Assembly (NCBI RefSeq): GCF_014204325.1
Contig: NZ_JACHKT010000036.1
Span: 1 to 53,519, forward strand
DNA: 53,519 nt
Source of the DNA: Arcicella rosea
Lineage (GTDB): Bacteria; Bacteroidota; Bacteroidia; Cytophagales; Spirosomataceae
Direction of reading: 5' to 3'
The position numbers and the translations under genes were made by a program. Of the stretch, positions 23,410 to 36,727 are shown piece by piece (position 1 is the first letter of the stretch; each line of letters opens with the position of its first letter). Under the pieces are notes generated by a model. It was given only the letters and a program-made list of their open reading frames with translations. It did not search any database and was not told where the DNA came from.

Positions 23410-23485
23410 ATAAAATATCAATAACTAATCTATGATTTTATACCAGAAAACCAGCAGTGCAGTAGAATTCAAATTTTCACCAACA

Positions 23486-23519
23486 AAAAAGCCTTAAATC
23501 GTATGATTTAAGGCTTTTT
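23486..23519 (-). terminator. Probable original terminator of the tRNA-Asn gene
   Basis: A 15-bp perfect stem (23486-23500... with 23505-23519) and a 4-nt loop. It directly abuts the tRNA 3'-end fragment at 23520-23532, reading leftward. On the minus strand it ends in a five-T run. It is best explained as the native terminator of the tRNA gene before the islands were inserted. Confidence 0.65.
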
Positions 23520-23532
23520 GCTCCCTCTCCTG
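23518..23532. repeat. Attachment core, distal copy (attL of element 1)
   Basis: The 15-base TTGCTCCCTCTCCTG is identical to 30725-30739 and 36651-36665. Its last 13 bases are the reverse complement of the 3' end of tRNA-Asn. To the right this copy and the one at 30725 share TGGATRAAAT, while the copy at 36651 continues into the full tRNA. Confidence 0.85.
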
Positions 23533-23591
23533 TGGATGAAATAAAAATATAACTATCTAATAATCAAAATATTACAAGTCAATCTTAAAGA

Positions 23592-23711
23592 GCTTTTCCA
23601 ATTTCTTTCCAATCGTTATTTTACATCCTCATCCATAAAATACATAAAATACTAAAAATCAACACATTAGCCTATTCCAAAATTTTTCAATGCTTTTCCA
23701 GATTCTTTCCA
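23592..23711. repeat. Pair of 20-bp direct repeats near the left end of element 1
   Basis: GCTTTTCCA-(A/G)(T/A)-TTCTTTCCA occurs at 23592-23611 and 23692-23711, with 18 of 20 bases identical and exactly 100 bp between starts. The position near the element end would suit recombinase arm-binding sites, but no protein can be assigned. Confidence 0.45.
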
Positions 23712-23738
23712 TAACTAAACAGGGCATAGCCACTGCTA

Positions 23739-23880
23739 TATATTTATTTATCTTTTTATATTTATTTATCTTACTACCTTACTACCAAAGGGAAAAAACA
23801 AGCTACGTGCTTTAGAAAAGCCTTTTTTAAGTAGTAAGATAGCTTCTTATAAGCTACTACTCTTCTTACGACCTTACTAC
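23739..23880. other. Origin-like patch: AT-rich 16-mers followed by CTTACTAC repeats
   Basis: TATATTTATTTATCTT occurs twice (23739-23754 and 23757-23772), directly followed by tandem CTTACTAC at 23770-23777 and 23778-23785. An inverted GTAGTAAG is at 23831-23838, and a second tandem pair CTTACGAC/CTTACTAC is at 23865-23880. AT-rich 16-mers beside short iterons resemble a replication origin, or an operator region for the gene starting at 23988. The iteron resembles the reverse of the TCGAGTAAG sites in element 2. The rest of the 23533-23987 gap shows no coding frame. Confidence 0.45.
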
Positions 23881-23987
23881 TTTTCAATTTTCTAAATTAA
23901 TATCAAAAGAAAGTTTCATCTGAGCATCAGCCAAAATTTAGTAATTTGCAAAAGATATATTTATCATTGAATATCGTCATTCATTAA

Positions 23988-25661
23988 ATGCAAGAAAAAG
24001 ACTTACATAGCTTACTTGAAGAACTTCTCCAGCAAAACAGTGGAGAGCAAGCTTGGTTGGAATTTAAAAGTAATGTTGCTTCTCAAAAAGCAAGTATTAC
24101 AATTGAGGGAATTGGTGAATATATTTCTGCTTTGGCTAACGGTGCAACGATTAGTAATCAAGATTTTGGTTATTTAATTCTCGGTGTTGAAGACATCACA
24201 AAAAATATCATTGGCACAAATTTTAGACCTTTTGTTCAAAAAGTGGGCAATCAAGATTTTGAGCTTTGGTTACGTTTAATGGTATCTCCTAAAATCAGTT
24301 TTGAAATTTTTGAATTTGAGTACCAAAATCAACATCTTGTATTATTCCGAATTCCTGCCGCTAAAGGTGAACCTGTAAGTTTTCAGAAGAAATTTTTCAT
24401 TAGAATCAATAGTCAGAAAACAGACTTATTGAATTATCCTGCTTATGTTCGGCAGGTTTATAATTCGTTGGAAGATTGGTCAGCTAAGACAATCCCTAAC
24501 GCAAGTATTGCTGATTTGGATGAAATGGCTTTGGCAGTAGCAAGAGCAAAGTTTAAAGAGAAGAATACTCAAGAAGCTTTCTATTCAGAAATTGATAATT
24601 GGGATACCTCGGTATTTCTGGATAAAGCTAAAATAACTATTCATGGTAAAATTACCAATACCGCTATTTTACTTTTGGGTAAACCTGAATCTGTCCATTT
24701 GTTGTCGCCATCCATTGCTGAGATTACATGGAAGCTTGATACAGAAGAAAAAGCTTATGAACACTTTGGAACACCACTTCTGTTGAACACAACTAAGGTT
24801 TTACAGAAAATTAGAAATTATCAATACAAGTTTTTCCCCAACAATGAATTACTTTCTGTGACGGTCAATAAGTACGAAACCAGAGTTATTTTGGAAGCCA
24901 TGCACAACGCCATTGCTCACCAAGACTATACTTTAAATGCTCGAATCATCGTCACCGAAAAGACCGACAAATTGGTTTTTAGTAATATTGGCGGTTTCTA
25001 TTCAGGTACTCCAGAAGAATACTTTTTTGGAGAGAAAACACCTGACCGTTATAGAAATCCGTGGTTAGTAAAAGCAATGGTTAATTTGGGAATGATTGAT
25101 ACTATGGGCTACGGTATTTACACCATGTTAAAGGAACAAAGAAAACGTTTCTTCCCATTACCAGACTATCATCATTCAGATTCAAGGAATGTAGTATTAG
25201 AGATTTATGGACATGAAATAGATACCAACTATTCAAAGCTTTTAATGGAGCATAAAGACCTTTCTTTGGAGACAGTCATACTATTGGATAGAGTACAGAA
25301 AAAACTGCCTATTACGAAAGAAGCATCAGATTCATTGCGTAAACAGAAATTGATAGAAGGAAGGACTCCTAATTATTTCGTATCGGCAAGTATTGCTCAA
25401 GCCACAGGACAAAAAGCCATTTATTCTAAAAACAAAGCGTTTGAAAAATCGTATTATCTTGACTTAATCATTAAGTCAATCACAGAGCATGGATTTTTAG
25501 AGCGTTCAGATGTGGATGAGCTACTATGGAATAAACTCCCTGAATGGATGGATGAAAAGCAGAAAAAAATCAAAATTACAAACCTTTTAGCAGAGTTAAG
25601 AAGTATTGGTAAAATTAGAAATGAAGGAAGTGATACTAAGCCCAAATGGGTTCTTTTATAA
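23988..25661 (+). CDS. Schlafen-type AlbA_2 domain protein with HATPase_c_4 domain
   Basis: A 557-residue soluble protein. Residues about 15-150 form an AlbA_2 (Schlafen-like) domain, starting with the typical EQAWLEFKSN and GEYISALANGATISNQDFGYLILGVED. The middle (about 270-400) is a HATPase_c_4 domain of the type found in RecG-like ATP-binding proteins: EAMHNAIAHQDYTLNARIIV carries the N-box, followed by LVFSNIGGFYSG and MGYGIYTML. The C-terminus looks like winged helices. Such proteins are frequent on mobile elements and near defence genes and are thought to act as regulators or nucleic-acid-binding effectors; the exact role is unknown. It is the only plus-strand gene of element 1 and converges with the STAND gene. 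Its stop codon lies in a tandem 11-nt repeat. Confidence 0.87.
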   Translation: MQEKDLHSLLEELLQQNSGEQAWLEFKSNVASQKASITIEGIGEYISALANGATISNQDFGYLILGVEDITKNIIGTNFRPFVQKVGNQDFELWLRLMVSPKISFEIFEFEYQNQHLVLFRIPAAKGEPVSFQKKFFIRINSQKTDLLNYPAYVRQVYNSLEDWSAKTIPNASIADLDEMALAVARAKFKEKNTQEAFYSEIDNWDTSVFLDKAKITIHGKITNTAILLLGKPESVHLLSPSIAEITWKLDTEEKAYEHFGTPLLLNTTKVLQKIRNYQYKFFPNNELLSVTVNKYETRVILEAMHNAIAHQDYTLNARIIVTEKTDKLVFSNIGGFYSGTPEEYFFGEKTPDRYRNPWLVKAMVNLGMIDTMGYGIYTMLKEQRKRFFPLPDYHHSDSRNVVLEIYGHEIDTNYSKLLMEHKDLSLETVILLDRVQKKLPITKEASDSLRKQKLIEGRTPNYFVSASIAQATGQKAIYSKNKAFEKSYYLDLIIKSITEHGFLERSDVDELLWNKLPEWMDEKQKKIKITNLLAELRSIGKIRNEGSDTKPKWVLL

Positions 25662-25691
25662 GAGATTTATAAGAGATTTATAAGAGATTTA
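25656..25691 (+). repeat. Three tandem 11-nt repeats over the stop codon of the AlbA_2 gene
   Basis: TTATAAGAGAT is repeated three times in direct succession. The TAA of the first unit is the stop codon of the AlbA_2 gene at 25661. Confidence 0.85.
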
Positions 25692-25811
25692 GTTCGACAG
25701 CTCAAAGTCAAAAACTTAACTATCAATACTTTAAGCAAAAAAATCTTTTTAAAAATTTTATAAATTTACAAATAAACGCCCTTGTTTTAAAAGAGCTTAT
25801 AAGAAAGAATC

Positions 25812-28800
25812 TTAATTCTCAACCTCTCTCAAAACCATATCAGAGGTTGAGCGGAATGTATCGTTTTGTAAAATTCTATCAAAAATTGAAATGGCTTTAA
25901 CTAAGTAATGATGATTCTGTTCAGCATCTTCTTCAAAAAGAACATTATAAACACTTAGTATAATTTGAATAACTTCTTTATCATAATAGTTGCCTTCACT
26001 AATACTTGGCTCTTGGTATTTATCGAAATGTTCAACCAATTCTAAGCAATCTTTTGGATATTGTCTTACGCCTGAAAGCAAATATTCATAATAATAACGA
26101 GATACTTTTTTGGTTGCCATCAATTTAGCATACTTCTTAATTGATGGTAATAATAATGAGAATCGTTCTTTAGGAAGCCATAAAAAAGAATGTCCATAAG
26201 CATCTACAACTTCACTATCACAATCATCCATAAACATCTCGAATATTTCAATAGATTTTTCCCAGTATTTTGGTTCACATTCTTTTAGTACTTGAGCACT
26301 GGAATCTACTAATTTAGCCTTTACCTTACTATTGTCATTTGCCATAGACATAAGAAGATTATAAGCTTGGTCATTTCCATTTATCCAGTAATAATATAAT
26401 ATTTCTGCAATCTCTGGCATTACATCTTCATATTCAAAACACATTTTATAAAAATCTTGAAGCTTCTCAAAATGTGTCCAATTAAGTTCTTGAGCTACAA
26501 TACCTGCATATTTGAATACCTCTGGATGAGGTTTGCTTGTTAGTTTTAAAAATATTTCTATAACTTTTTCTTTATCAATAACCAACCAATTTGGTAGCTT
26601 AGTCATAACCGTTGTTTTTAGCATGATATTAGAACCTTCAGCTATTTGTTCAACGGTTTCAACTATTCTAATGTGAAACTCAGGTAAATGTGAGCAGTCC
26701 ATTAAATGCAAAATAGCACTTCCTCTAACCGAATCAATTCTATCCAAAAGTATTTCCTCATCTCTGTTTAAATTTTGTATTTCATATTTTTCATCTAAAC
26801 AGTTGGTAATCATATAAGTGACGATATTGCTGCTTATAGTCCTATTTTTAAGCAAATAGCTGGAAATTCTGTAAACCCTCAACTTAGAATAATCTGATAA
26901 ATGGTTGCACTCAATCACTTGATTAACCATTTTAGTAATTACATTTCCATCATATTCTGCTTCAACAAGCCCTTCAATACCAGCTAAAATATACTCCTCT
27001 TTTACTTTCCAATCGGAGACTAACTTATTTATAAGTGGTAGAAAATAATCTGGTCGCTCTTTTACTTCTTTTGTGAATTGGCTATAATGTTCAATCATAG
27101 AGCCTCTATTAGAATCAATAAATAGTTTGTCACTGTCTATCTTTAAAAAGGTTTTTTCCCAGTGGGTCAAAGTCATTTTGTGATAGCTTCTTTGAGAATA
27201 AGGAGCTGGTACTCCTCTAAAAATACTTTTGCGGGGAGCTTCATTCTTAACATTTGGATGTTTTCTTTTTAGCTCTTGATATTTTTTTTTTAGTACAAGC
27301 TTCTTTAAAATTTCTTCAATGGGAATTGATGATAAGCTCAACAGCTTTTTCCTTCCATACCATGATAAATAATGTATTTTCTTTTCTCCACTTGAATAGC
27401 ATTTTAAATGAAATTTATCTTTTATGTTCAACAGAAATTCATCGACTTGATTTTTTTCTTGTTCTGAAAATCTGGGGTAGCTTATAGCTATTAATTCTCT
27501 AACGTAATAAGTATATTCATCCCTTAATTCAAAACCTTCTTGTTGTCCAAAATTAAAGATGAATAAAAAACACTCTTTGGAATATTCTTGAGGATTTTCA
27601 AGTAATCCTTTTACTAATAATCGTTGAATAATGAGAAAAAGATTATCAATATGAGCATAGAAAAAGGTTCTAAAAGCCTGAGGCTCTTCCTTGGCTATTT
27701 TCTTGACATTATCCATCACAATTCCATAAAAGGTTTCATGATTCACCGAACCTTCAGCCGAATCAATAGACGAATAGCCACTTATGGCAGTATCTCCCAT
27801 GAATGATGATAAAACATCATCGGAATGTCGCTCAATTCTAAATTTTGTCTCCTCTATTACTTTTTTGATTAGATTAACCGAAAATTCCAGTGTTTTATCA
27901 AAGTGTTTTTTAAATAGAAGTGTTAGTAATTTCTTCTCAGAATGTTCAAATTTTATTTCTGCACGACTATACGAATTAGTAGATTTTCTACTATAAAGTT
28001 CGATTTCAAATTGGGTAATTACCCAATCTGGTTGGTCAGATACTGCGTTTTCTAAAATATAGAAAAACCAACGATTACGATTTTCTGGCTTTTGGAAATA
28101 TTTTTCAAATAAATCACAAGCTATTGGGTTAGTCCATACTTTTAAATAGAATAACATATCTGAAATAATACGCTCTTTCCCCTCGTAATCTAATAAACTC
28201 TCAGAAACATATTCTAAAACTATATCTGTACTATTTTGTAAGAATCTATTGAAAATTGAGCTACAAAGAGCTATATCCCTATTTTTATCGGTTTCATAAA
28301 GTTTTAAATCTGGGTTAAGTAAATCATTAAAAATATTCTCTTCAATTAAAAATTGTAACCAGTCTGGGCTATTAACAGATTCTAAGAATGCTTTTTTGAA
28401 GGTTTGAGAAGTCAAGATTTTACTCCTAACAAACGCTTTTTCTTTAATCGAAACCTCCCTTAAAAAACATAAATTAGTGATTAATAAGTGTTTGAGATGG
28501 TACGAAAAAGCGTCCGAAAATAAAACCTCATTTAATAATCTGAGATACTCTTTCGGGTTATTCCCTCTTGTAAAATCAAACACCATTTTTACAACAGTTC
28601 TAATCTTTAATCCTTGATGATTTTCAATAATATATTCTAAAATTGATTTGCCCTTGTGAACAAATGATTTTGCATAAGTAAAATCGTAGAACGTTTGATG
28701 GAAGAATTGGATATAATCCTTTTTAAGGGTTAAAATTCCTTCACTGACGAGATAAGCAAGCTCTCGTTTATATCTAATTTGAAATGGCTCTGATGAAATA

Positions 28801-30377
28801 TTTATGCGTTCTTGCTCATACATTTTTTCTGCAATGTCATAGACAAGCATTATACAGTCAGGAGAAGAAATTCTATTGTTAACTATTCGTTGTTTGAATA
28901 ATTCTTGCTGTAAATCCTGACGTGTAGCCAAACGATTAAAATCTAATGTATCATTTAAAACTCTACAAAATAAGTCAAGGTTTGAAGCATTTTTCAAGAG
29001 TTGTTTCAATGGTTCAGATAGTGTTTGAATATTGAAATTCTTCTTTTGAAGCACTGTTTCTATCTGTTCGATAGTCAAATCTTTCACTTCTATTTTACTT
29101 GCTTTTCGAGATATAACAATTAAATCAGCATCTTCTTGTAAATCAAAAGGTCTTGCAGAAATTACAATACGAACTTGGGGAATAGTTGAAAGCGTATTGA
29201 TAAGAGTACGAAATGTATTTAAAGGTTCTCTCCTGTTAGATTGTGTTTGTGATAAAGCATCAATCTGGTCAATTATGACTACTACTTTATCAATTCCATT
29301 CATTAATAAGGTTTTAATCTCTCTTTCTAATGAATCCTTCAAATTGAGTTGAGCTTCTAAATCCTTCACTGTCTCAGGAGCATATTTATCAGACTTAATA
29401 GCAATTACAGGAACTTCTGAATCCATCAAATGACAGACTAAATCTTTCATTATTACACTTTTGCCTACTCCTGCACCACCAACTAAAAGTAAACTATTAT
29501 TTTTTTTATCATCTGATAAGTCACTATTTAGCCATTCTAAAATTTGAAGAGTTTCATCACGTTCAATGTGTGAACCTTCAATATTATCAAACTCATTCGA
29601 TAACTCACTAACAAAAGTGGATGCTATTTTGAAATCTTGGTTAATTACATCAGGAGATAGTAGATTTGGACTTTGAGGTTCTCGAATTGCATCAATAATT
29701 TCATCTGTTTGCTTACCCAATTCCTTCAACAAAGTCTCACTATCAATTACAGTTCTAACACTCCAAAATTGTCCGATTATTATCTTATTAGCTTCTTTAG
29801 CAAGATAGTTGTCTAATTTTGAAGATATTATTGGCTCAATTTTTATTAATTTTAAGAGAGTTTTTAATCTCTTCTCAACGTTTGCAAAAGTTAGTTGAGC
29901 ATTCTTAAAAGTTTCGTATTTTCTGATAACTGCTTTTGTCCATTTTTCAAAATCTGGTTCACAAACAACTTGATTACTAAAATTTTCGATAAATGGACGT
30001 ACATCCTTTGCAAAACCTTTTGGAGCTGCTAAGAAATAGCTATATGAATTTAAATCAATAAAATTTTCATTATCAAGCATATAATGCAAAACAAACTTGA
30101 TAACTTCTTTGGAAACAGTAGCTTTATCCAATAGTTTACTAACCCATTTGCACTGAATCCCCCCAGCCTTTAAGCCATCTTTATATAAATCTACATCAAT
30201 ACCTTTATCTGCTCCAATCGGTTTTAAATCGGAACAATCAAACACTCCTTTGTACTCCCCCGTCTTAATTTCTTGTGAAAATATAGAGTGTAATAACTCT
30301 TCAAATTTTCTATCATTTTGAAGTGCAAAGTAATTATGAGAAGAATTTGGTGTTTGAGAGATTGGTTTGGTGTTCAT
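25812..30377 (-). CDS. Avs-like antiphage STAND NTPase with N-terminal Mrr-like nuclease
   Basis: A 1521-residue soluble protein with three parts. Residues about 20-140 look like a PD-(D/E)xK nuclease of the Mrr/Cap4 kind: an acidic helix (FEELLHSIF), then KGIDVDLYKDG (Asp61/Asp63) and GIQCKW (Gln75, Lys77). Residues about 265-560 are a STAND P-loop NTPase: Walker A VGGAGVGKS (Lys306), Walker B VVIIDQIDALS (Asp370/Asp373), sensor ISARPF, then a winged-helix-like segment (AYLVSEGILTLKKDYIQFFH). Residues about 600-1521 are helical repeats without known motifs, as in sensor arms. Nuclease-STAND-repeat order and length fit Avs proteins, which bind a phage protein, oligomerise and cut DNA. No partner gene is adjacent. 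The Avs label is from architecture, not from a search. Confidence 0.75.
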   Translation of the reverse strand: MNTKPISQTPNSSHNYFALQNDRKFEELLHSIFSQEIKTGEYKGVFDCSDLKPIGADKGIDVDLYKDGLKAGGIQCKWVSKLLDKATVSKEVIKFVLHYMLDNENFIDLNSYSYFLAAPKGFAKDVRPFIENFSNQVVCEPDFEKWTKAVIRKYETFKNAQLTFANVEKRLKTLLKLIKIEPIISSKLDNYLAKEANKIIIGQFWSVRTVIDSETLLKELGKQTDEIIDAIREPQSPNLLSPDVINQDFKIASTFVSELSNEFDNIEGSHIERDETLQILEWLNSDLSDDKKNNSLLLVGGAGVGKSVIMKDLVCHLMDSEVPVIAIKSDKYAPETVKDLEAQLNLKDSLEREIKTLLMNGIDKVVVIIDQIDALSQTQSNRREPLNTFRTLINTLSTIPQVRIVISARPFDLQEDADLIVISRKASKIEVKDLTIEQIETVLQKKNFNIQTLSEPLKQLLKNASNLDLFCRVLNDTLDFNRLATRQDLQQELFKQRIVNNRISSPDCIMLVYDIAEKMYEQERINISSEPFQIRYKRELAYLVSEGILTLKKDYIQFFHQTFYDFTYAKSFVHKGKSILEYIIENHQGLKIRTVVKMVFDFTRGNNPKEYLRLLNEVLFSDAFSYHLKHLLITNLCFLREVSIKEKAFVRSKILTSQTFKKAFLESVNSPDWLQFLIEENIFNDLLNPDLKLYETDKNRDIALCSSIFNRFLQNSTDIVLEYVSESLLDYEGKERIISDMLFYLKVWTNPIACDLFEKYFQKPENRNRWFFYILENAVSDQPDWVITQFEIELYSRKSTNSYSRAEIKFEHSEKKLLTLLFKKHFDKTLEFSVNLIKKVIEETKFRIERHSDDVLSSFMGDTAISGYSSIDSAEGSVNHETFYGIVMDNVKKIAKEEPQAFRTFFYAHIDNLFLIIQRLLVKGLLENPQEYSKECFLFIFNFGQQEGFELRDEYTYYVRELIAISYPRFSEQEKNQVDEFLLNIKDKFHLKCYSSGEKKIHYLSWYGRKKLLSLSSIPIEEILKKLVLKKKYQELKRKHPNVKNEAPRKSIFRGVPAPYSQRSYHKMTLTHWEKTFLKIDSDKLFIDSNRGSMIEHYSQFTKEVKERPDYFLPLINKLVSDWKVKEEYILAGIEGLVEAEYDGNVITKMVNQVIECNHLSDYSKLRVYRISSYLLKNRTISSNIVTYMITNCLDEKYEIQNLNRDEEILLDRIDSVRGSAILHLMDCSHLPEFHIRIVETVEQIAEGSNIMLKTTVMTKLPNWLVIDKEKVIEIFLKLTSKPHPEVFKYAGIVAQELNWTHFEKLQDFYKMCFEYEDVMPEIAEILYYYWINGNDQAYNLLMSMANDNSKVKAKLVDSSAQVLKECEPKYWEKSIEIFEMFMDDCDSEVVDAYGHSFLWLPKERFSLLLPSIKKYAKLMATKKVSRYYYEYLLSGVRQYPKDCLELVEHFDKYQEPSISEGNYYDKEVIQIILSVYNVLFEEDAEQNHHYLVKAISIFDRILQNDTFRSTSDMVLREVEN

Positions 30378-30680
30378 ACAATTTTATAGTAAAAGGTTAA
30401 TTTCTATTACTTAACTTTCAAAAATCACTTCCTTAATTGGAACAAATTATTACTAAAATACCAATTTCTGTTTAAAAAGGAGGGCTTCACTATATAAGAT
30501 ACCTAAACAATTTATTTTTATTACTTAACCTCAATAAGTGAGCAATGAGAATAGTCTTAAAAGTGAACATTGAAAGAATAAGTTATTTGAAGATTTTCAA
30601 GACAGTACAGAAATTAAACAGAAAATATTCTAATAAAAACTGTTCCAAACCATTTCAAAAAATCTGGAACAGTGGAAAAC
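30378..30680. other. Noncoding right flank of element 1
   Basis: About 300 bp with no credible gene. It must hold the promoter of the minus-strand STAND gene. The one clear structure is an 8-bp inverted repeat CTGTTCCA/TGGAACAG (30640-30647 and 30665-30672), close to the attachment site. Confidence 0.5.
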
Positions 30681-30681
30681 A

Positions 30682-30716
30682 AAAAAGCCTTCATACGTTG
30701 CGTATGAAGGCTTTTT
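30682..30716 (-). terminator. Element-borne terminator, copy at the element 1/2 junction
   Basis: A 16-bp perfect stem with a 3-nt loop (30682-30697 with 30701-30716). The 61-nt block 30679-30739 matches 36605-36665 with one difference. Read leftward, it lies where a tRNA terminator would be needed. Confidence 0.85.
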
Positions 30717-30724
30717 GTAATTAA

Positions 30725-30739
30725 TTGCTCCCTCTCCTG
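30725..30739. repeat. Attachment core, middle copy (junction of elements 1 and 2)
   Basis: Same 15 bases as at 23518 and 36651. To the left it is like the right junction at 36651 (hairpin plus TRATTAATT); to the right it is like the left junction at 23518 (TGGATRAAAT). This hybrid is what is expected when element 2 enters the right junction of element 1. A degenerate second copy, CTCCTTTCTCCTGT, is at 30765-30778. Confidence 0.85.
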
Positions 30740-31022
30740 TGGATAAAATCATCGTTTTATTATTCTCCTTTCTCCTGTAAACCAATGAATTACAGAATAA
30801 AGCCCCCAAATTGTACCTTTATTTGTAACTATTTCTATAAAAAAGCCTTTTATAAACTCTAATTACTACTCATTTATAATTGTGCAAGATTTAAAACTAA
30901 ATAATGCTTTCTCTTTGAATTAAAGCCTTTTTTCTTCCAAAAGTTAATTTTCAGGTACTCACTTTTATTGTACCTCAATACACTTAATGTTTAATAGTGC
31001 ATAGTTGTTCAAATAGATTATT
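30740..31022. other. Noncoding left end of element 2
   Basis: About 280 bp without a gene. It holds a degenerate second copy of the attachment core (30765-30778) and two AAAGCCTTTT motifs (near 30842 and 30924). It is presumably the left arm of the recombination site plus the 3' flank of the repressor gene; no clear terminator for that gene is seen. Confidence 0.45.
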
Positions 31023-31484
31023 TTATTCTTTTGATTTGAGAGCAATTTTTAAAGCATCTATTACCATTTCTTTGTCTTTAATTCTTTCTTCTTTTTCTTT
31101 TATCGTGTTCTTTAAAGACTTTATCTCTTTCTTTAGATTTTCTATTTCTGAATTTTGCTTACTCCATGTTTCAGTATCTTCATTTGATGATAATTCAAAT
31201 TGAGCTTTTAGTGCTTCATATTTTTTCTCAAGTGCTTTGATTTTTTTTATATACTCTTCTACTTCACTATGACCAATCTCTCCACCTTCATAGTTCATTA
31301 GTTCGGTTACAGTCATATCAAATGCTTTCGCTATTTGTTCCATTCTCTCAATAGTTAGTTGAGTTAGTCCAGATTCAATTCTATTGTAATTACTTTGGTT
31401 TGTACCAATCATCTTACCTAAATCTTGCTGACTAAGCTTTTTCTCAATTCTTATTGCTTTAATCTTGGAATATATAGTATTCAT
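31023..31484 (-). CDS. XRE-family repressor with C-terminal coiled coil
   Basis: A 153-residue DNA-binding protein. Residues 1-66 are a lambda-repressor-like helix-turn-helix (IRIEKKLSQQDLGKMIGTNQ, SNYNRIESGLTQLTIERMEQ). From about residue 75 to the end there is a long charged heptad coiled coil (IKALEKKYEALKAQF, EIENLKKEIKSLKNTIKEKE), probably for oligomerisation or for binding an anti-repressor. It is divergent from the other element genes across a palindrome-rich gap, the position of a master repressor such as Stl of phage-inducible islands. It probably keeps integrase and replication genes silent and represses itself. Confidence 0.87.
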   Translation of the reverse strand: MNTIYSKIKAIRIEKKLSQQDLGKMIGTNQSNYNRIESGLTQLTIERMEQIAKAFDMTVTELMNYEGGEIGHSEVEEYIKKIKALEKKYEALKAQFELSSNEDTETWSKQNSEIENLKKEIKSLKNTIKEKEERIKDKEMVIDALKIALKSKE

Positions 31485-31645
31485 TTTTTAGATTATTTGT
31501 TCAACACAAATTTAATTTATTTGAAAACAAGAATGAAATCTAAAATTTAGATTATCTATTATTTTGATTTTAAAAAATAAATCTACAATTTTGATAATCT
31601 AAATAATGATTTAAAGTATTAAATAACTAAAAAATAGATTAAAGC
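31485..31645. promoter_or_regulatory. Divergent operator region of element 2
   Basis: A perfect palindrome AATCTAAA-A-TTTAGATT lies at 31537-31553, midway between the divergent regulator genes. Further half-sites (TAGATTAT or its reverse) occur near 31489, 31552, 31594 and 31635, so the repressor probably binds several spaced sites. It should contain the promoters for 31023-31484 and 31646-31927. Confidence 0.65.
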
Positions 31646-31927
31646 ATGGAAGCAACACAAACATTTTTAGCAAGCCACATAGTAGCATTTGAAAAAGAAA
31701 CTATGCTATTATTCAAACCATCAAAAGCATTTTACGAAACTGTTGGTATTAACAAAAAAAGATTTTGGCAATTGGTCAGAGGTGTAAAGAAGCCATTGAC
31801 AGAAGAAACAGAGAATTTGTCAAAATGCTTAAAAGTGCCTTTGTCTCAATTAATGAATGTAAATGATAGTAAAACATTTTTATCTGGACGTAGGAGCATA
31901 GAGAGCAGCACTAATGAAAATCAATAA
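31646..31927 (+). CDS. Small Cro/HTH-type regulator
   Basis: A 93-residue protein. The central part (ETVGINKKRFWQLVRGVKKPLTEETENLSKCLKVPLSQLM, given here as residues about 28-70) has the order of an XRE-type helix-turn-helix: a start helix, GINKKRFWQL recognition region, and a C-terminal cap. The termini are unstructured. It starts at the far side of the palindrome region and points away from the repressor, so it is likely the counter-regulator (Cro-like) or the first gene of the element's early transcript. A hairpin (31963-31991) separates it from the integrase. Function is inferred from fold and position only. Confidence 0.75.
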   Translation: MEATQTFLASHIVAFEKETMLLFKPSKAFYETVGINKKRFWQLVRGVKKPLTEETENLSKCLKVPLSQLMNVNDSKTFLSGRRSIESSTNENQ

Positions 31928-31962
31928 TTGATAACAAACCATTCACCCGAACCCAAAAAATA

Positions 31963-31991
31963 AGCCGTAACTATTGCGAGTAGTTACGGCT
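31963..31991. terminator. Hairpin between the small regulator and integrase genes
   Basis: An 11-bp perfect stem AGCCGTAACTA (31963-31973) with 31981-31991, loop 7 nt. T-poor on the plus side but T-rich on the minus side, so it may be a weak terminator or attenuator before the integrase gene, which starts 33 bp later. Confidence 0.6.
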
Positions 31992-32023
31992 AAATAAATA
32001 CGGTTCACTAAATAACAATTAAA

Positions 32024-33247
32024 ATGACCAATACAAAGTTACCCATTTCTGACAAAGGAGGAAAAAAAAGAACCTCAACATTTAACGTAACATTCAGAGC
32101 AAGAGAGAATAACGCTAACTTATCAATAAATGTTAGGCTTTCTTATGATGGCAAAACCTTTGATAAGTTCACAGGGGTTAAATGCCAAAAAGGAGAGTTT
32201 AAAAATGGCAAAATCAAAGGCAAACCAGAACAAAATTCGTTACTAAAAACCTATGAAAACAACCTACATAAAGCTTTTATTCAATTGCTTGAGTCTGGTC
32301 AAACGATTGATTTAGAGCGTATTTCTTTTTCAATTTTTGGTAAATCTGTTATTCAAGAAAAACCAAAGCTTTTTGAAGCTATCGACCTGTATATCAAAGA
32401 CATTTATTTGGACAAAGGCAACGATTTTGCAGATAAAACAAAGGATAAAAATCAACGATACGGAAAACATTTGAAACAATGGCTAAAGTTTGTTTTTGAA
32501 CGTGAAGGCATAGACTTAACGGAAATTAAACCAGCTCACGACTTAGAAATAATCAAGTTTATGAAATCTCATAGACAATCAGGACACAACCACGCCACAA
32601 GATACGTAAAATGGTTAAAACGCTTTTTTGATTATGCTATTAGTAAAGAATGGGTATTAAGAAACCCTTTCCTAAACTTTAAACCCAAACACGAGAAAGT
32701 AAAAATAAAATACTTGACAAAAGAAGACATTGAGAAGTTTGAAGCCTTAAAAGTATCTAAGGGGAGTACCTACGAAAGAGTTAGGGACTTTTTCCTGTTT
32801 TCTTGTTACACTGGTCTAAGTTATATAGACTTAGTAAACGTCACTTTCAACCACATAAAAGTTAATGAAAATGGAGTAAAATATCTCGAAGTTCCAAGAC
32901 AAAAAACTGATGTCACTTCAATTGTTCCACTGCTTGAAAAGCCTATTTTTTTGATTGAAAAATATCGTTTTGAAGACAATCAAGTAAAGATTTTTAATGT
33001 ACCTACAAATCAATGTATGAACCGTACATTAAAAGAACTTGCAGAAATGGCAAACCTTTCAATAATGCCTACTTTCCATATTTCTCGCAAAACGTGTGCG
33101 ACACTTCTAATTAGTGAGGGTATAGATGCAACTATAGTCCAAAGGGTTTTAGGACACTCATCACTAAGCACAACGCTAAATCATTACGGTAAAATAGAGG
33201 CAAAACCTATTATTGATTCATTCAATAGAACCTTTAAAAATGCCTAA
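32024..33247 (+). CDS. Tyrosine recombinase (integrase) of element 2
   Basis: A 407-residue site-specific recombinase that presumably joins the element to the tRNA-Asn 3' end. An arm-type DNA-binding domain is near residues 18-110, a phage_int_SAM-like core-binding domain near 115-225, and a catalytic domain follows. Catalytic residues: Lys294 (RQKT), His352-x-x-Arg355 (FHISRKTC), His378 (LGHSS) and the nucleophile Tyr388 (LNHYGK). The first Arg is replaced by Ser266 in SCYTGLSYIDL; a change at this place is known in Bacteroidota integrases of the NBU1 type. The next gene starts inside its last codons. Substrate is inferred from the att repeats. Confidence 0.93.
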   Translation: MTNTKLPISDKGGKKRTSTFNVTFRARENNANLSINVRLSYDGKTFDKFTGVKCQKGEFKNGKIKGKPEQNSLLKTYENNLHKAFIQLLESGQTIDLERISFSIFGKSVIQEKPKLFEAIDLYIKDIYLDKGNDFADKTKDKNQRYGKHLKQWLKFVFEREGIDLTEIKPAHDLEIIKFMKSHRQSGHNHATRYVKWLKRFFDYAISKEWVLRNPFLNFKPKHEKVKIKYLTKEDIEKFEALKVSKGSTYERVRDFFLFSCYTGLSYIDLVNVTFNHIKVNENGVKYLEVPRQKTDVTSIVPLLEKPIFLIEKYRFEDNQVKIFNVPTNQCMNRTLKELAEMANLSIMPTFHISRKTCATLLISEGIDATIVQRVLGHSSLSTTLNHYGKIEAKPIIDSFNRTFKNA

Positions 33248-33485
33248 TGATATGGATTTTTGTGATGAAAACAAGGAGGAAATATTTAATAAATTTTTAG
33301 CTAAAATAGGATGCTATGAGATGTTAGTCAGTGAAATGAAAGATTACATTGAAGAGCTAAAAAGAGTAATTATTAGTAAAGATTTAGAGTTGAAAAACTT
33401 AAATAATTACGTAGATAATTTGGATTTATGGCTTGAAGAGTATGAAGAGATTGCCAATAAATATTCTGATATATTTCAAAATTAG
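33240..33485 (+). CDS. Small coiled-coil protein of unknown function
   Basis: An 81-residue acidic protein whose ATG at 33240 overlaps the integrase stop by 8 bp, implying translational coupling. It is almost entirely helical: YEMLVSEMKDYIEELKRVII and LNNYVDNLDLWLEEYEEIAN form heptad-like stretches. No cysteine motif or helix-turn-helix is visible. A terminator follows at 33507-33534. The place right after the integrase could suit a directionality or accessory factor, but nothing in the sequence proves this. Not recognised. Confidence 0.6.
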   Translation: MPNDMDFCDENKEEIFNKFLAKIGCYEMLVSEMKDYIEELKRVIISKDLELKNLNNYVDNLDLWLEEYEEIANKYSDIFQN

Positions 33486-33506
33486 TACTAAACAATTTTA
33501 AAAAAT

Positions 33507-33534
33507 AGCCCTGTTTTTTCCTCAAAACAGGGCT
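33507..33534 (+). terminator. Intrinsic terminator after the integrase operon
   Basis: An 11-bp perfect stem (33507-33517 with 33524-33534) around a 6-nt loop lies 20 bp past the small coiled-coil gene and just before the VapE gene. A-rich before, T-poor after, so read-through is plausible. Confidence 0.7.
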
Positions 33535-33549
33535 TAATCTTATAAGCAA

Positions 33550-34833
33550 ATGAGCAATATAACAGCACTTAAAGTTACAAAAAATAAAGAACAAAGTCAA
33601 GGGTTATTGGACAAAAGCACTGAAAATAAAGGTGTTACAAAAGAAAGTAACAATAATGCAAATAAACCTTTAATCATTAGATTAGAAAATTTTATTTTTA
33701 GTAAGTATGACCTTAGAGTAAATATAGTTTCCAATGAAATGGACGGTAAACTAAAGAAGGAAAAAGAGTATAATTTGTTTACTGAGGATACAATCACTTA
33801 TGACCTTTATGCCAATGGCTTTAACAAATTCAATCAGATTTTACCCGTCATAATATCTAACAAAGTAGAAAAATACGACCCGATTAAACAGTATTTTGAG
33901 AGCCTTCCAAAATGGGATAATTCACAGCCTGATTACATAACTGAACTAAGTAAATATGTCATCATCGAAGATAAAGTTTGGTGGCAAAGAATGTTTAAAA
34001 AACACCTTGTCAGGATGGTTGCACAAGGCATTTTACATATTCCGTTTAATAAACAATGTTTGACGCTTGTAGGCAAACAGAATGACGGCAAAACATCCTT
34101 TTTAGAGTTTCTCGTTCCTCCTAAATTAAGCAAATACTATCGTAAAGGTTTTGATTTTGGAGGAAACAAAGACGGTAAAATATCACTTTGTCAGAACTTT
34201 ATAATCAATTTGGATGAACTAGCCAGCTTTGAAAAAAGAGAGCTTAATAACGATTTTAAAACTATTCTAACGGAATCAGTAGTGAAGTTTAGACCTCTGT
34301 TTGGAAAGAGTGAAATTACTCATTACCGCCGTGCAAACTTCGTAGCAAGTACAAACCAATATGAGTTTTTAACAGATGAAACAGGAAACGTTAGGTGGTT
34401 GCCATTTGTGGTAAAAGAAATTAAGCACGATAACGGCAAAGCAAAAGGCTATCAGGCTAATATTGATATTGATTTGGTTTGGTCGCAAGCCTATCATTTG
34501 TTGTTATCTGGGAACTTTGAATTTATAATGAGCAAAGAAGACATTGAGATGCAAGAAAAGATAAATCAAAGGTTTATGCGTATCAGTACAGAAATTGAAG
34601 TTATTCAAAGAAACTTTTTACCAAGTGATAAAGATAGCCCGAATAGCGAATTTTTAACGACAAGTGAAATAGAACAAAGATTGGTTGCGGTATCAGGTTT
34701 AAAGCTCAATAGAATTCAAATTGGTAAAGCATTAAAAATATTACATTTCCAAGAATCCCAAAAATACAGTAAAGAATATCAATACAGTATAAAAGGGTAT
34801 TATATAAAAAATATTCAAAATCATCTTACTTAG
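33550..34833 (+). CDS. VapE/VirE-type SF3-like replication helicase
   Basis: A 427-residue replication ATPase. Residues 1-40 are a polar, disordered start. The VapE domain spans about 110-320: FESLPKWDNSQPDYITEL, Walker A VGKQNDGKTS (Gly175-Ser183), Walker B IINLDEL (Asp222, Glu223), sensor FVASTNQYEFL (Asn269) and arginine finger in TGNVRWLPF (Arg282). In phage satellites such proteins load at the element origin and unwind it. The N-terminal primase domain present in some homologues is missing; that function is supplied by the separate primase gene at 35199. The left-most arm of the iteron region covers its final codons. Confidence 0.9.
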   Translation: MSNITALKVTKNKEQSQGLLDKSTENKGVTKESNNNANKPLIIRLENFIFSKYDLRVNIVSNEMDGKLKKEKEYNLFTEDTITYDLYANGFNKFNQILPVIISNKVEKYDPIKQYFESLPKWDNSQPDYITELSKYVIIEDKVWWQRMFKKHLVRMVAQGILHIPFNKQCLTLVGKQNDGKTSFLEFLVPPKLSKYYRKGFDFGGNKDGKISLCQNFIINLDELASFEKRELNNDFKTILTESVVKFRPLFGKSEITHYRRANFVASTNQYEFLTDETGNVRWLPFVVKEIKHDNGKAKGYQANIDIDLVWSQAYHLLLSGNFEFIMSKEDIEMQEKINQRFMRISTEIEVIQRNFLPSDKDSPNSEFLTTSEIEQRLVAVSGLKLNRIQIGKALKILHFQESQKYSKEYQYSIKGYYIKNIQNHLT

Positions 34834-35132
34834 TTACTCGATAAAATATAATATATTAGTAATCAATACATTAAGTGCCAAAAAGTCGAGTAAGATACTT
34901 TTTTTAATCCTACTCGAAATATTTTAAATATATTGATTTCCAGTTACTTATATATTTACTTTCGAGTAAGATACTCATTGTTAGTAAATACTTGCTACTC
35001 GAAAAAAGGGTTAAAATTGGCAGATTTCGAGTAAGTCGAGTAAGATGATTTAAAAGTATCTTACTCGACTTTTTTACTTTAAGTTCTTGATTTTAAATGT
35101 GTTATTTCGTTTCGAGTAACTTAGTAGGATGA
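34821..35132. other. Putative replication origin: nested symmetric TCGAGTAA iterons
   Basis: Nine TCGAGTA-type sites lie in this 312-bp stretch between helicase and primase genes. They pair as nested inverted repeats about one centre: 34821-34841 with 35112-35132 (19 of 21), 34880-34902 with 35052-35074 (23 of 23), 34911-34920 with 35024-35033 (10 of 10), and 34960-34968 with 34996-35004 (9 of 9). All four pairs centre between 34972 and 34982. Site orientation alternates along the stretch except for one extra tandem unit at 35036. No coding frame is present in 34834-35198. Position and structure fit an origin recognised by the VapE helicase, but this is inference. Confidence 0.65.
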
Positions 35133-35198
35133 AATCACGTTTTTAAAAGTTTTCAACAACATTGTTTTTTTTAATTGTAATATTCCGCAAAAAGAAAA

Positions 35199-36053
35199 AT
35201 GGAAATATCCGATTTAAAGCAAATTCAAATAATAGATTATCTCCAAAACTTAGGTTTAGAGCCTGTTAAATCCAGCGGTAAAGAGTTGGTTTACTATTCG
35301 CCCAAAACCAACGAGAATACGCCTTCTTTTTTTGTCAATCCAAGCAAGAATGTATTTTTTGATTATTCCAGTAATGAGAGCGGGGACATTATACGATTAG
35401 TACAATACTTGGAGGGTTTTGATTTTACAACCGCCTGTAAACACTTGGAAACTATCGGAAACGGTTCTATTTTTCAATGTGCTGAAAATTCCTTTTCTTT
35501 TTGCAGAAAATCACCTGAAAACAACACAAACACTATATCAATCAACACCGTAAAGCCTTTACAAGCCAATTCCTTGATAAGTTATTGCGAATCTCGAAAG
35601 ATACCCTTTCAGATTGCATACAAATACCTTAAAGAAGTTCATTACACCAATAACAATAAATCTTATTACTCATTAGGATTTATCAATGATAGGGGAGGTT
35701 TTGAACTGAGAAACCAACATTTCAAAGGATGCACCACACCAAAGGGAATCACAACTTTTGAAGTTCCAGAAAGTAGGGACGTTTATTTATTTGAGGGCTT
35801 TTTTGATTTACTTTCGGCATTCGTTCACTTTGGCACGTCTAAACCTTCAAACACTGTAATTGTGTTAAACTCTATTGTAAATATTGAAAAAGCTAAAGAA
35901 CGACTAAAGGAAGCCGAAAAAATACATTGCTTTCTTGATAGAGATGTTCAAGGAATGAAATCAGTTAAAAAACTATCAGAGAGTTTTCAAGTAATTGATA
36001 GGTCAAAAATTTACGAAGGTTTTAAAGATTTTAATGAATATATAAGTGCTTAA
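35199..36053 (+). CDS. Toprim-type DNA primase with CHC2-like N-terminus
   Basis: A 284-residue primase. Residues 10-80 have the CHC2 fold pattern (YYSPKTNENTPSFFVNPSKN, FDYSSNESGDIIRLVQYLEG) but without the zinc-binding Cys/His set. Residues about 190-275 are a Toprim domain: VYLFEGFFDLLSAF with catalytic Glu199, and HCFLDRDVQGM with Asp247 and Asp249. It lies directly after the iteron region and would lay primers for the helicase-driven fork; with VapE it forms a complete small replication module. Similar proteins are found on Bacteroidota conjugative and mobilisable elements. Confidence 0.88.
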   Translation: MEISDLKQIQIIDYLQNLGLEPVKSSGKELVYYSPKTNENTPSFFVNPSKNVFFDYSSNESGDIIRLVQYLEGFDFTTACKHLETIGNGSIFQCAENSFSFCRKSPENNTNTISINTVKPLQANSLISYCESRKIPFQIAYKYLKEVHYTNNNKSYYSLGFINDRGGFELRNQHFKGCTTPKGITTFEVPESRDVYLFEGFFDLLSAFVHFGTSKPSNTVIVLNSIVNIEKAKERLKEAEKIHCFLDRDVQGMKSVKKLSESFQVIDRSKIYEGFKDFNEYISA

Positions 36054-36077
36054 AGCTATGAGTATTCTAAAGACTGC

Positions 36078-36288
36078 CTGAAAAGTTTCTGAAAGTATCC
36101 TGAATCAGGTCTGAAATAATTCTTAAAGTGTGCTGAAATAGGTCTGAAACATTCTGAAAGCATTCTCAAATGATTCTGAAAGTGTTCTAAAATGACCCTG
36201 AAATTATTCTTAATGATATAGTATAGCTAATAGAAGGCTAAATGAAGGCTAAATGAAAGCTAAATGAAAGCTAAATGAAAGCTAAATG
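36078..36288 (+). repeat. 11-nt periodic array (CTGAAA units, then CTAAAT units)
   Basis: CTGAAA-like units start at 36078, 36089, 36100, 36111, 36122, 36133, 36144, 36154, 36165, 36176, 36187, 36198 and 36209. Spacing is 11 nt with a single 10-nt step. After an 18-nt step, CTAA units continue at 36227, 36238, 36249, 36260, 36271 and 36282, again 11 apart. About 19 units cover 210 bp between the primase stop and the next gene. The final CTAAATG supplies the start codon at 36286. Confidence 0.9.
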
Positions 36289-36543
36289 TACCCCAAAAAA
36301 TACCCCAAAACAAAGATTATGTATAACGGATTTAGTAAGAAAGATTTTTTGAGAATGTACAACGTGAACAGAACTATCTTTAACAATTGGTGTAAGGAGA
36401 TAAAGAAGAATGTTAATATTAAAGACACTAAACAAACCTTTACACCAAAGGAAATAAAAATAATTATTGCCAGCTTTGGACAACCTCCATTTTCAACCGA
36501 ACAAGAGAAAGAATATATTAAGGCAATATTAGAGCAATCTTAG
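36286..36543 (+). CDS. Small helix-turn-helix protein (possible excisionase)
   Basis: An 85-residue basic protein. The segment FSKKDFLRMYNVNRTIFNNW (residues about 16-35) reads as a helix-turn-helix of the type in small excisionase or AlpA-like regulators. The next part (FTPKEIKIIIASFGQPPF) may be a second helical unit. The ATG at 36286 is formed by the last unit of the 11-nt array; an internal ATG at 36319 would remove a YPKK-repeat tail of 11 residues and is an alternative start. As the last gene before the attachment site at the tRNA, an excisionase role is reasonable but not shown. Confidence 0.65.
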   Translation: MYPKKYPKTKIMYNGFSKKDFLRMYNVNRTIFNNWCKEIKKNVNIKDTKQTFTPKEIKIIIASFGQPPFSTEQEKEYIKAILEQS

Positions 36544-36553
36544 TTTAAAGAAT

Positions 36554-36587
36554 AAATAAGGTACTCAAAAAACTGAGTACCTTATTT
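36554..36587 (+). terminator. Intrinsic terminator of the last element 2 gene
   Basis: A 14-bp perfect stem (36554-36567 with 36574-36587), loop 6 nt, starting 11 bp past the stop codon of the helix-turn-helix gene. Confidence 0.8.
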
Positions 36588-36607
36588 GTACCAACTTTTT
36601 TACAACA

Positions 36608-36642
36608 AAAAAGCCTTCATACGTTGCGTATGAAGGCTTTTT
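36608..36642 (-). terminator. Element-borne terminator serving tRNA-Asn
   Basis: A 16-bp perfect stem with a 3-nt loop, identical in structure to 30682-30716. Read on the minus strand it follows the tRNA 3' end by 11 bp and ends in a six-T run. Confidence 0.85.
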
Positions 36643-36650
36643 GTGATTAA

Positions 36651-36665
36651 TTGCTCCCTCTCCTG
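36651..36665. repeat. Attachment core at the intact tRNA (attR of element 2)
   Basis: TTGCTCCCTCTCCTG, identical to 23518-23532 and 30725-30739, but here continuous with the complete tRNA-Asn gene on its right. Confidence 0.85.
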
Positions 36666-36727
36666 GGCTCGAACCAGGGACCCCATGATTAACAGTCATG
36701 TGCTCTAACCGGCTGAGCTAAGAAGGA
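36654..36727 (-). tRNA. tRNA-Asn (anticodon GTT)
   Basis: A complete 74-nt cloverleaf on the minus strand. The acceptor stem is TCCTTCT with AGAGGGA (one T-G wobble); the D stem is GCTC/GAGC. The anticodon stem is CATGA/TCATG around CTGTTAA, so the anticodon is GTT. The T stem is CCTGG/CCAGG with loop TTCGAGC, discriminator base G. CCA is not encoded. Its 3' end is the insertion site of the islands to the left; integration has preserved the full gene. Confidence 0.96.

Follow-up and report, generated by a model that had tools for sequence, protein, structure and literature searches.

A three-step accretion model has been published from streptococcal arrays of integrative elements, in which a unit flanked by attachment (att) sites but devoid of an integrase is joined by a second element that enters its attR site (PMC5704250). 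The Islander table lists 125 tandems of two or more islands (PMC4383910). Tandems of phage-inducible chromosomal islands (PICIs) at one site, and defence cargo in phage-inducible chromosomal minimalist islands (PICMIs), have also been reported (PMC10111431, PMC10803314), PICMIs being defined by AlpA together with integration at fis (PMC10803314). Here we describe two tandem elements, element 1 (E1) and element 2 (E2), in the 53,519-nucleotide contig NZ_JACHKT010000036.1 of Arcicella rosea (Bacteroidota; family Spirosomaceae), hereafter the window. We consider it probable that the 3′ end of one tRNA-Asn gene took them up on separate occasions, E1 first and E2 later through the tRNA-side att site of E1, and that E2 is satellite-like and E1 a stranded unit resembling a cis-mobilizable element (CIME). 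The architecture is that of the published three-step model and a mostly ordinary case; no account of such stacked elements in Arcicella came up in a limited literature search.

The features that define the site are as follows.

23484–23519, no strand: displaced hairpin taken as the native tRNA-Asn terminator (CTTAAATC), found behind tRNA-Asn in two other genomes (G012 and G003, below)
23518–23532, plus strand: left core, attL of E1 (exact repeat)
30725–30739, plus strand: hybrid core, right end of E1 and left end of E2 (repeat, spacing and flank comparison)
36651–36665, plus strand: right core, attR of E2 and tRNA 3′ end (repeat and tRNA position)
36653–36727, minus strand: tRNA-Asn (GTT), the integration target, adjoining rsmG (ARAGORN; rsmG synteny in relatives)

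The 15-base core, TTGCTCCCTCTCCTG, occurs at 23518, 30725 and 36651 and nowhere else in the window; its chance expectation is 0.04 with up to two mismatches allowed, and three copies were reached in none of 100 shuffles. ARAGORN found a single tRNA in the window, whose position makes the last 13 of the 15 core bases the tRNA-Asn 3′ end. Exact matches and spacings thus agree with the sequence-only reading, made before any comparison, that three core copies bound units of 7,207 bp (E1) and 5,926 bp (E2). Compared leftward, starting at the end of the core, the middle and right copies share 61 of 62 bases (the 15-base core and a 47-nt flank) and only 26 of the next 100; rightward, the left and middle copies agree at nine of ten positions and at 35 of 100 beyond. 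The left flank of the left copy, with the core counted, matches that of the middle copy at 26 of 62 positions and contains a different hairpin. Since its left side agrees with the right copy and its right side with the left copy, the middle core is a hybrid with sharp limits, as had been claimed. The claimed extents need trimming: a left-flank match of 61 nt with 60 identical is real but includes the core, the flank proper being 47 nt, and the equality of the right flanks holds for about ten bases and no further. What E1 and E2 share is limited to the core and a terminator cassette of 47 nt (46 of 47 identical). Their earlier description as a related pair whose att ends are the same finds no support beyond core and terminator: the inner repeats differ, and queries with the E2 integrase, VapE and primase gave no more than chance-level matches in E1 (best E 0.26).

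We compared eight Arcicella genomes (G000–G007, G000 being the genome of the window, G001 Arcicella sp. Prado083 and G007 A. aurantiaca DSM 22214) and genomes outside Arcicella, among them G008 and G012; loci are numbered L. In the window, in each of the seven further Arcicella genomes and at 20 of 24 rsmG loci scanned in relatives, tRNA-Asn and rsmG are neighbours. In G012 the CTTAAATC hairpin, which in the window lies beyond the left core, directly follows tRNA-Asn; in G003 it follows after 14 extra bases, and in G004:C32 and G006:C333 it is displaced beside a core. We take this hairpin as the native terminator of tRNA-Asn. The empty site that had been predicted, with the hairpin straight after the tRNA, thus exists in G012 and, nearly empty, in G003, the match covering the junction only.

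A foreign end adjoins tRNA-Asn in seven of the eight Arcicella genomes (G000, G001, G002, G004, G005, G006 and G007; G002 is counted solely because the final ~140 nt there resemble G006); one, G003, looks empty. Hybrid junctions, defined as cores with element-type sequence on both sides, occur in four of the eight: G000, G001 (C323, JALONS010000057.1, and C109), G006 (C381) and G007 (C2, NZ_QGGO01000002.1, where the core is partly decayed). These counts bear out the proposal of an accumulation hotspot. The site is also occupied in G008, where L100 (G008:C6) carries a defence-like cluster of a broken integrase, a Schlafen-type protein, an SNF2-like helicase and an Eco57I-type methylase. A VapE search with six sequences kept 80 of 231 related loci, and we examined the six best outside Arcicella (L200–L205). 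Each of the six lies at a tRNA gene (for Asn, Asn, Arg, Arg, Val and His) whose 3′ end (last 13–17 bases) is repeated 6.9–12.2 kb away, with VapE in between; two of them are at the same rsmG-linked tRNA-Asn, where E2-type elements sit in Larkinella terrae and Larkinella sp. C7.

The inner ends of the two elements differ in their repeats.

23592–23713, no strand: left-end TTCCA repeats of E1 (TTTCCA subtype), putative arm-type integrase sites (motif counts)
30640–30677, no strand: right-end TTCCA repeats of E1, mostly GTTCCA (motif counts)
30682–30716, no strand: putative terminator palindrome of E1, CTTCATAC type (hairpin comparison)
30812–30975, no strand: left-end GTACC repeats of E2 (motif counts)
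32024–33247, plus strand: tyrosine integrase of E2 (Phage_integrase, 1.3e-15)
36560–36595, no strand: right-end GTACC repeats of E2 (motif counts)
36608–36642, no strand: putative terminator palindrome of E2, now behind tRNA-Asn (hairpin comparison)

The ends of E1 (200 bp inside the left core plus 150 bp inside the right terminator) hold eight TTCCA, and those of E2 (260 bp on the left, 150 bp on the right) six GTACC. Neither count was reached by any of 20,000 random chromosomal pairs. Each motif topped an unbiased 5-mer list, meant to offset the fact that both had been picked after looking at the ends. Among 14 other element ends at this core, eight carry at least three TTCCA (in G001, G005, G006, G007 and G008). 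The repeats would be integrase arm sites, and because the ends of E1 are rich in TTCCA and those of E2 in GTACC, the two elements were probably inserted by different integrases. The one that brought E1 is probably absent from the genome now; when the genome was compared with the A. aurantiaca integrase, no protein outscored the E2 integrase (29%). An integrase scan of genome contigs found no relative, and the integrase matches in plasmids had less than 60% identity in all 89 records. The palindrome was set aside as a candidate crossover site: the native hairpin at 23484–23519 is whole, and the exchange would lie to its right.

E1 itself contains two large genes.

23988–25661, plus strand: 557-aa protein with SLFN_AlbA_2 and HATPase_c_4 domains (Pfam 1.3e-18 and 1.8e-10)
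25812–30377, minus strand: 1,521-aa STAND/NACHT NTPase with an N-terminal PD-(D/E)XK-like domain (Pfam, PADLOC, alignment and model)

As in a CIME, E1 is flanked by attL and attR and lacks integration and transfer genes, neither protein having such a domain and no integrase domain appearing among their Pfam hits; its end repeats resemble those of integrase-bearing elements, and no gene remnant was found in it. The cargo likely serves defence. PADLOC matched the STAND protein to PDC-M54A (1.3e-20) and mad8; none of its Avs models gave a match at E of 0.01 or better. Across its first 300 residues, D57, D61 and Q75-C-K77 are kept in all five sequences when four relatives are aligned, which we take to be the pattern expected of a PD-(D/E)XK nuclease. 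The structural model is of modest confidence (pLDDT 63); its best fold match is Avs3 (8dgc; E 2.6e-4, TM 0.28 by query), followed by Lamassu LmuA, Hachiman and Cap4, only two matches having E of 0.001 or less. By sequence, the best matches of the STAND protein among solved structures were only Clp-type ATPases, while the Schlafen-type protein had nothing below E 0.05 and no NCBIfam match. An 11-bp repeat, TTTATAAGAGA, present in 3.4 copies, lies between the two convergent genes (25655–25691).

Homologues of both proteins (STAND 67%, Schlafen-type 89% amino-acid identity) occur in Prado083 next to a hybrid core that, like the one here, is followed by a TGGATGAA start. Because this copy is colinear with E1 up to the contig end, the left end and genes of E1 form a unit in two species. 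We rejected E1 as a recent arrival: against Prado083, its genes have 79.8% and 72.6% DNA identity and rsmG 76.9%, so that E1 possibly dates back to the divergence of the two species. We likewise rejected a fixed two-gene system. STAND relatives occur in eight of 222 family genomes searched (own genome included), the Schlafen-type neighbour appears only at the Prado083 locus among nine (L289–L297), and five wider stretches around STAND relatives contained no such neighbour.

Together, the junctions and the relatives support serial integration at one tRNA-Asn gene, as the sequence-only reading had it. In the sequence of events that we favour, E1 would have inserted first at the tRNA-Asn 3′ end, pushing the native terminator aside, and E2 would later have recombined with the tRNA-side att site (attR) of E1, leaving the hybrid middle site. 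Each attP would begin on its inner side with arm repeats, followed outward by an intrinsic terminator, then a short spacer and the final 13 tRNA bases. Since it supplies both, the tRNA would emerge from each insertion with a correct 3′ end and a new terminator. E1, which lacks an integrase and whose ends fit an integrase class other than that of E2, is probably stranded, a CIME-like island that would move only along with another element.

Alternatively, E1 and E2 could be one composite that arrived together, all 13.1 kb from one outer site to the other being mobile through the E2 integrase. The outer cores do flank both units, and in Streptococcus agalactiae a whole composite of a decayed integrative and conjugative element (ICE) and an integrative and mobilizable element (IME) with very different att sites is reported to excise (PMC5704250). 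We nevertheless consider a composite unlikely here: the middle core is a hybrid that has stayed intact, the inner ends at the two outer cores are of different classes (TTTCCA on the left, GTACC on the right), and the E1 homologue in Prado083 stands in another array context, on a 9.4-kb contig with no E2 gene. Similarly improbable is E1 as a non-autonomous passenger mobilized in trans by the E2 integrase. Such mobilization would fit the core and cassette that the elements share, and the fact that the sole integrase among nine element proteins scanned is that of E2; it is at odds with the end repeats, which differ between the elements and which in E1 resemble ends in G001, G005, G006, G007 and G008, genomes in which the integrases seen differ from that of E2. 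An origin of the repeats in assembly error or duplication of the tRNA end, without integration, is scarcely credible: 62-bp repeats can mislead short-read assembly, and the window is one whole contig of 77, but junctions of this sort occur in three further Arcicella genomes, and each of the six E2 relatives examined lies between two copies of a tRNA end.

Some observations weigh against serial insertion by two integrases as we propose it. Five of the 14 other ends have at most one of either motif, and one (G006:C333) has two GTACC. The subtypes of E1 differ between its ends, TTTCCA on the left and mostly GTTCCA on the right, so that E1 could be a deletion fusion of two older elements. The right end of the Prado083 homologue of E1 lies beyond its contig, and the junctions in G001 and G006 are on contigs separate from the tRNA, their place in an array being presumed. 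Finally, the genes of the window's left flank have no counterpart next to the native terminators in G004 and G006, nor next to the tRNA in G003, G012 and G016, and the empty site is therefore matched at the junction and not over its neighbours.

We then considered what follows the tRNA. At all 19 tRNA-Asn sites, reading outward from the tRNA or core, there is a hairpin with a T-rich tail (−10.0 to −21.0 kcal/mol). The six E2 relatives likewise all have a hairpin behind the tRNA, five at −16.6 or better and L203 at −8.3. The hairpins behind the tRNA would terminate transcription. In the control, the element-inner side of 14 displaced cores (eight at tRNA-Asn, six in the relatives), 13 cores had weak hairpins, none better than −11.1. 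The CTTCATAC palindrome is present at the 19 core-sampled sites with zero to one mismatches in eight, four in one and six to seven in ten. In exact form it has 16 sites in nine of the 222 family genomes, 15 of which adjoin the 3′ end of a tRNA gene or a repeat of such an end. It accompanies GTACC, GTTCCA and TTTCCA ends, at tRNA-Asn, tRNA-Thr, tRNA-Arg and tRNA-Phe genes; in G002, where it stands at a copied tRNA-Arg end, its neighbours include an integrase and VapE, and the sites at tRNA-Phe in G004 and tRNA-Arg in G006 were covered over only ~1.7 and 2.3 kb. We rejected the palindrome as the genome's general tRNA terminator: among 33 tRNAs (from 30 loci out of 37 matches) only tRNA-Asn and tRNA-Thr(TGT) have it.

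At tRNA-Thr(TGT) (L309–L319) the tRNA is identical in ten of 11 genomes, whereas nine downstream stretches contain several unrelated hairpins, some common to a few species, which suggests terminator turnover at a second tRNA. In G000 and G006 (one mismatch) this tRNA has the palindrome with two GTACC behind it; the site in the window's own genome, G000:C15 (L154/L280), is perhaps a leftover element end. A tRNA-Thr array at L098 (G005:C45:165500–185000) has three integrase genes. A pair of CTTCATAC palindromes encloses two of them, one a 45% relative of the E2 integrase, together with a relative (58%) of the E2 primase; the remaining integrase gene is just outside. At L281 (G005:C3), tRNA-Arg and the palindrome are followed by a type I restriction-modification set (HsdM, a DUF1016 nuclease and HsdS), no integrase being seen in 19 kb.

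From these comparisons we conclude that insertion would replace the terminator of the tRNA and that the palindrome appears to travel with element ends. Several points tell against this part. The values for G001:C109 (−10.0) and L203 overlap the control range, and L203 has a stronger hairpin on its inner control side (−9.7) than behind the tRNA. The palindrome of G001:C109 is degenerate, with four mismatches, the middle junction of G007 has a native-type hairpin in its place, and the tRNA-Asn ends of G002, G004 and G006 have other hairpins. One of the 16 exact palindromes, at G007:C11, has no tRNA or core beside it. Those at tRNA-Arg in G005 and G012 and at tRNA-Thr in G000 have no integrase of the model within 16–19 kb, and therefore may be native or left by lost elements. 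It is quite possible, if somewhat short of probable, that the tRNA-facing end is an exchangeable att cassette, consisting of the palindrome (CTTCATAC...GTATGAAG) and the tRNA 3′ end, swapped among elements that differ in arm repeats, integrase and target tRNA, and possibly captured from a native tRNA-Thr terminator; tRNA genes would then change terminators with each landing while their own sequence stayed fixed. A look-alike hairpin is present at tRNA-Thr in G007. The identity block at fis is reported to reach into the terminator in some cases (PMC10111431); a limited literature search on attP and tRNA terminators returned no title on a conserved replacement terminator.

E2 holds seven open reading frames (ORFs), which besides the integrase are listed here with its repeats.

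31023–31484, minus strand: HTH_3 repressor, divergent from the rest (Pfam 2.9e-14)
31646–31927, plus strand: small 93-aa protein in a conserved place before the integrase (no family match; homologues in relatives)
33213–33485, plus strand: 90-aa ORF overlapping the integrase end (ORF list)
33550–34833, plus strand: VapE-like replication helicase (Pfam 2.6e-33)
34834–35198, no strand: iteron-rich gap (TACTCGA nine times), candidate replication origin (repeat counts)
35199–36053, plus strand: CHC2 zinc finger/Toprim primase (Pfam)
36225–36288, no strand: tandem array of an 11-bp repeat (5.8 copies) shortly after the primase gene (repeat search)
36286–36543, plus strand: 85-aa ORF (ORF list; weak sub-cut-off family matches only)

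The Pfam hits of the seven ORFs include no relaxase, capsid or terminase domain. The 85-aa ORF scored 19.8 bits against an NCBIfam tail-protein model with a cut-off of 23.65 and was not taken as a structural gene; VapE has no NCBIfam match, and the 93-aa protein looks Cro-like by eye only. Because no relaxase or capsid gene was recognized, E2 is probably an autonomous-looking, phage-satellite-like integrating replicon. Like PICIs it combines an integrase, a regulator and a primase/replication module without capsid genes. It departs from the PICMI definition in its target, tRNA-Asn and not fis, and no AlpA (PF05930/PF12728) appeared among the Pfam hits viewed, for the repressor the best 25 of 29. 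All six relatives (L200–L205) carry an integrase of the same model, and five carry the primase.

TACTCGA occurs nine times in the 365-bp gap between VapE and the primase, as against none in the other 5,561 bp of E2, four times in the 40,277 bp of flanking chromosome, and eight times in the matching gap of the A. aurantiaca element. The gap repeats run in both directions and a long hairpin is predicted, the A. aurantiaca element being similar; that element also has tandem repeats near its primase-side end. A repeated 8-mer (three to ten times) was found in all eight gaps compared, the motif differing in Runella (where the primase was not seen and the gap is wider), Fibrivirga and L. rosea. The gap may thus be an origin on which VapE acts, and its repeats offer a handle on E2 replication.

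At this locus serial accretion can be read cleanly from three junctions, with an empty site to match, and defence-type cargo is kept between att sites without an integrase of its own. Less ordinary is that the elements appear to carry a terminator for the tRNA behind which they insert, with one palindrome at ends that differ in repeats and tRNA; tRNA-targeting elements may have to replace the terminator as well as the 3′ end of the tRNA they interrupt. Among known systems, the STAND protein of E1 resembles Avs-type proteins such as Avs3 (8dgc) in joining a STAND NTPase to an N-terminal PD-(D/E)XK-like domain, although the fold match is weak and PADLOC gave no Avs model. E2 shares with PICIs and PICMIs a small size, an integrase, a regulator, a primase and no recognized capsid genes, and differs from them, as these are described (PMC10111431, PMC10803314), in lying at tRNA-Asn instead of fis, with no AlpA or terminase recognized and no helper phage known. 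As in the tandem tRNA islands of Islander (PMC4383910), a tRNA gene and displaced 3′ fragments bound the arrayed islands; the Islander rule, as stated there, demands an integrase for each member, and E1 has none. The streptococcal arrays of ICEs, IMEs and CIMEs (PMC5704250) differ from this locus in host, Arcicella here, and in that no conjugation or relaxase genes were recognized and the cargo is defence-like. With them, as far as they are described there, the locus has in common an att-flanked unit without integration genes, entry at attR, a chimeric middle att site and distantly related integrases of similar specificity.

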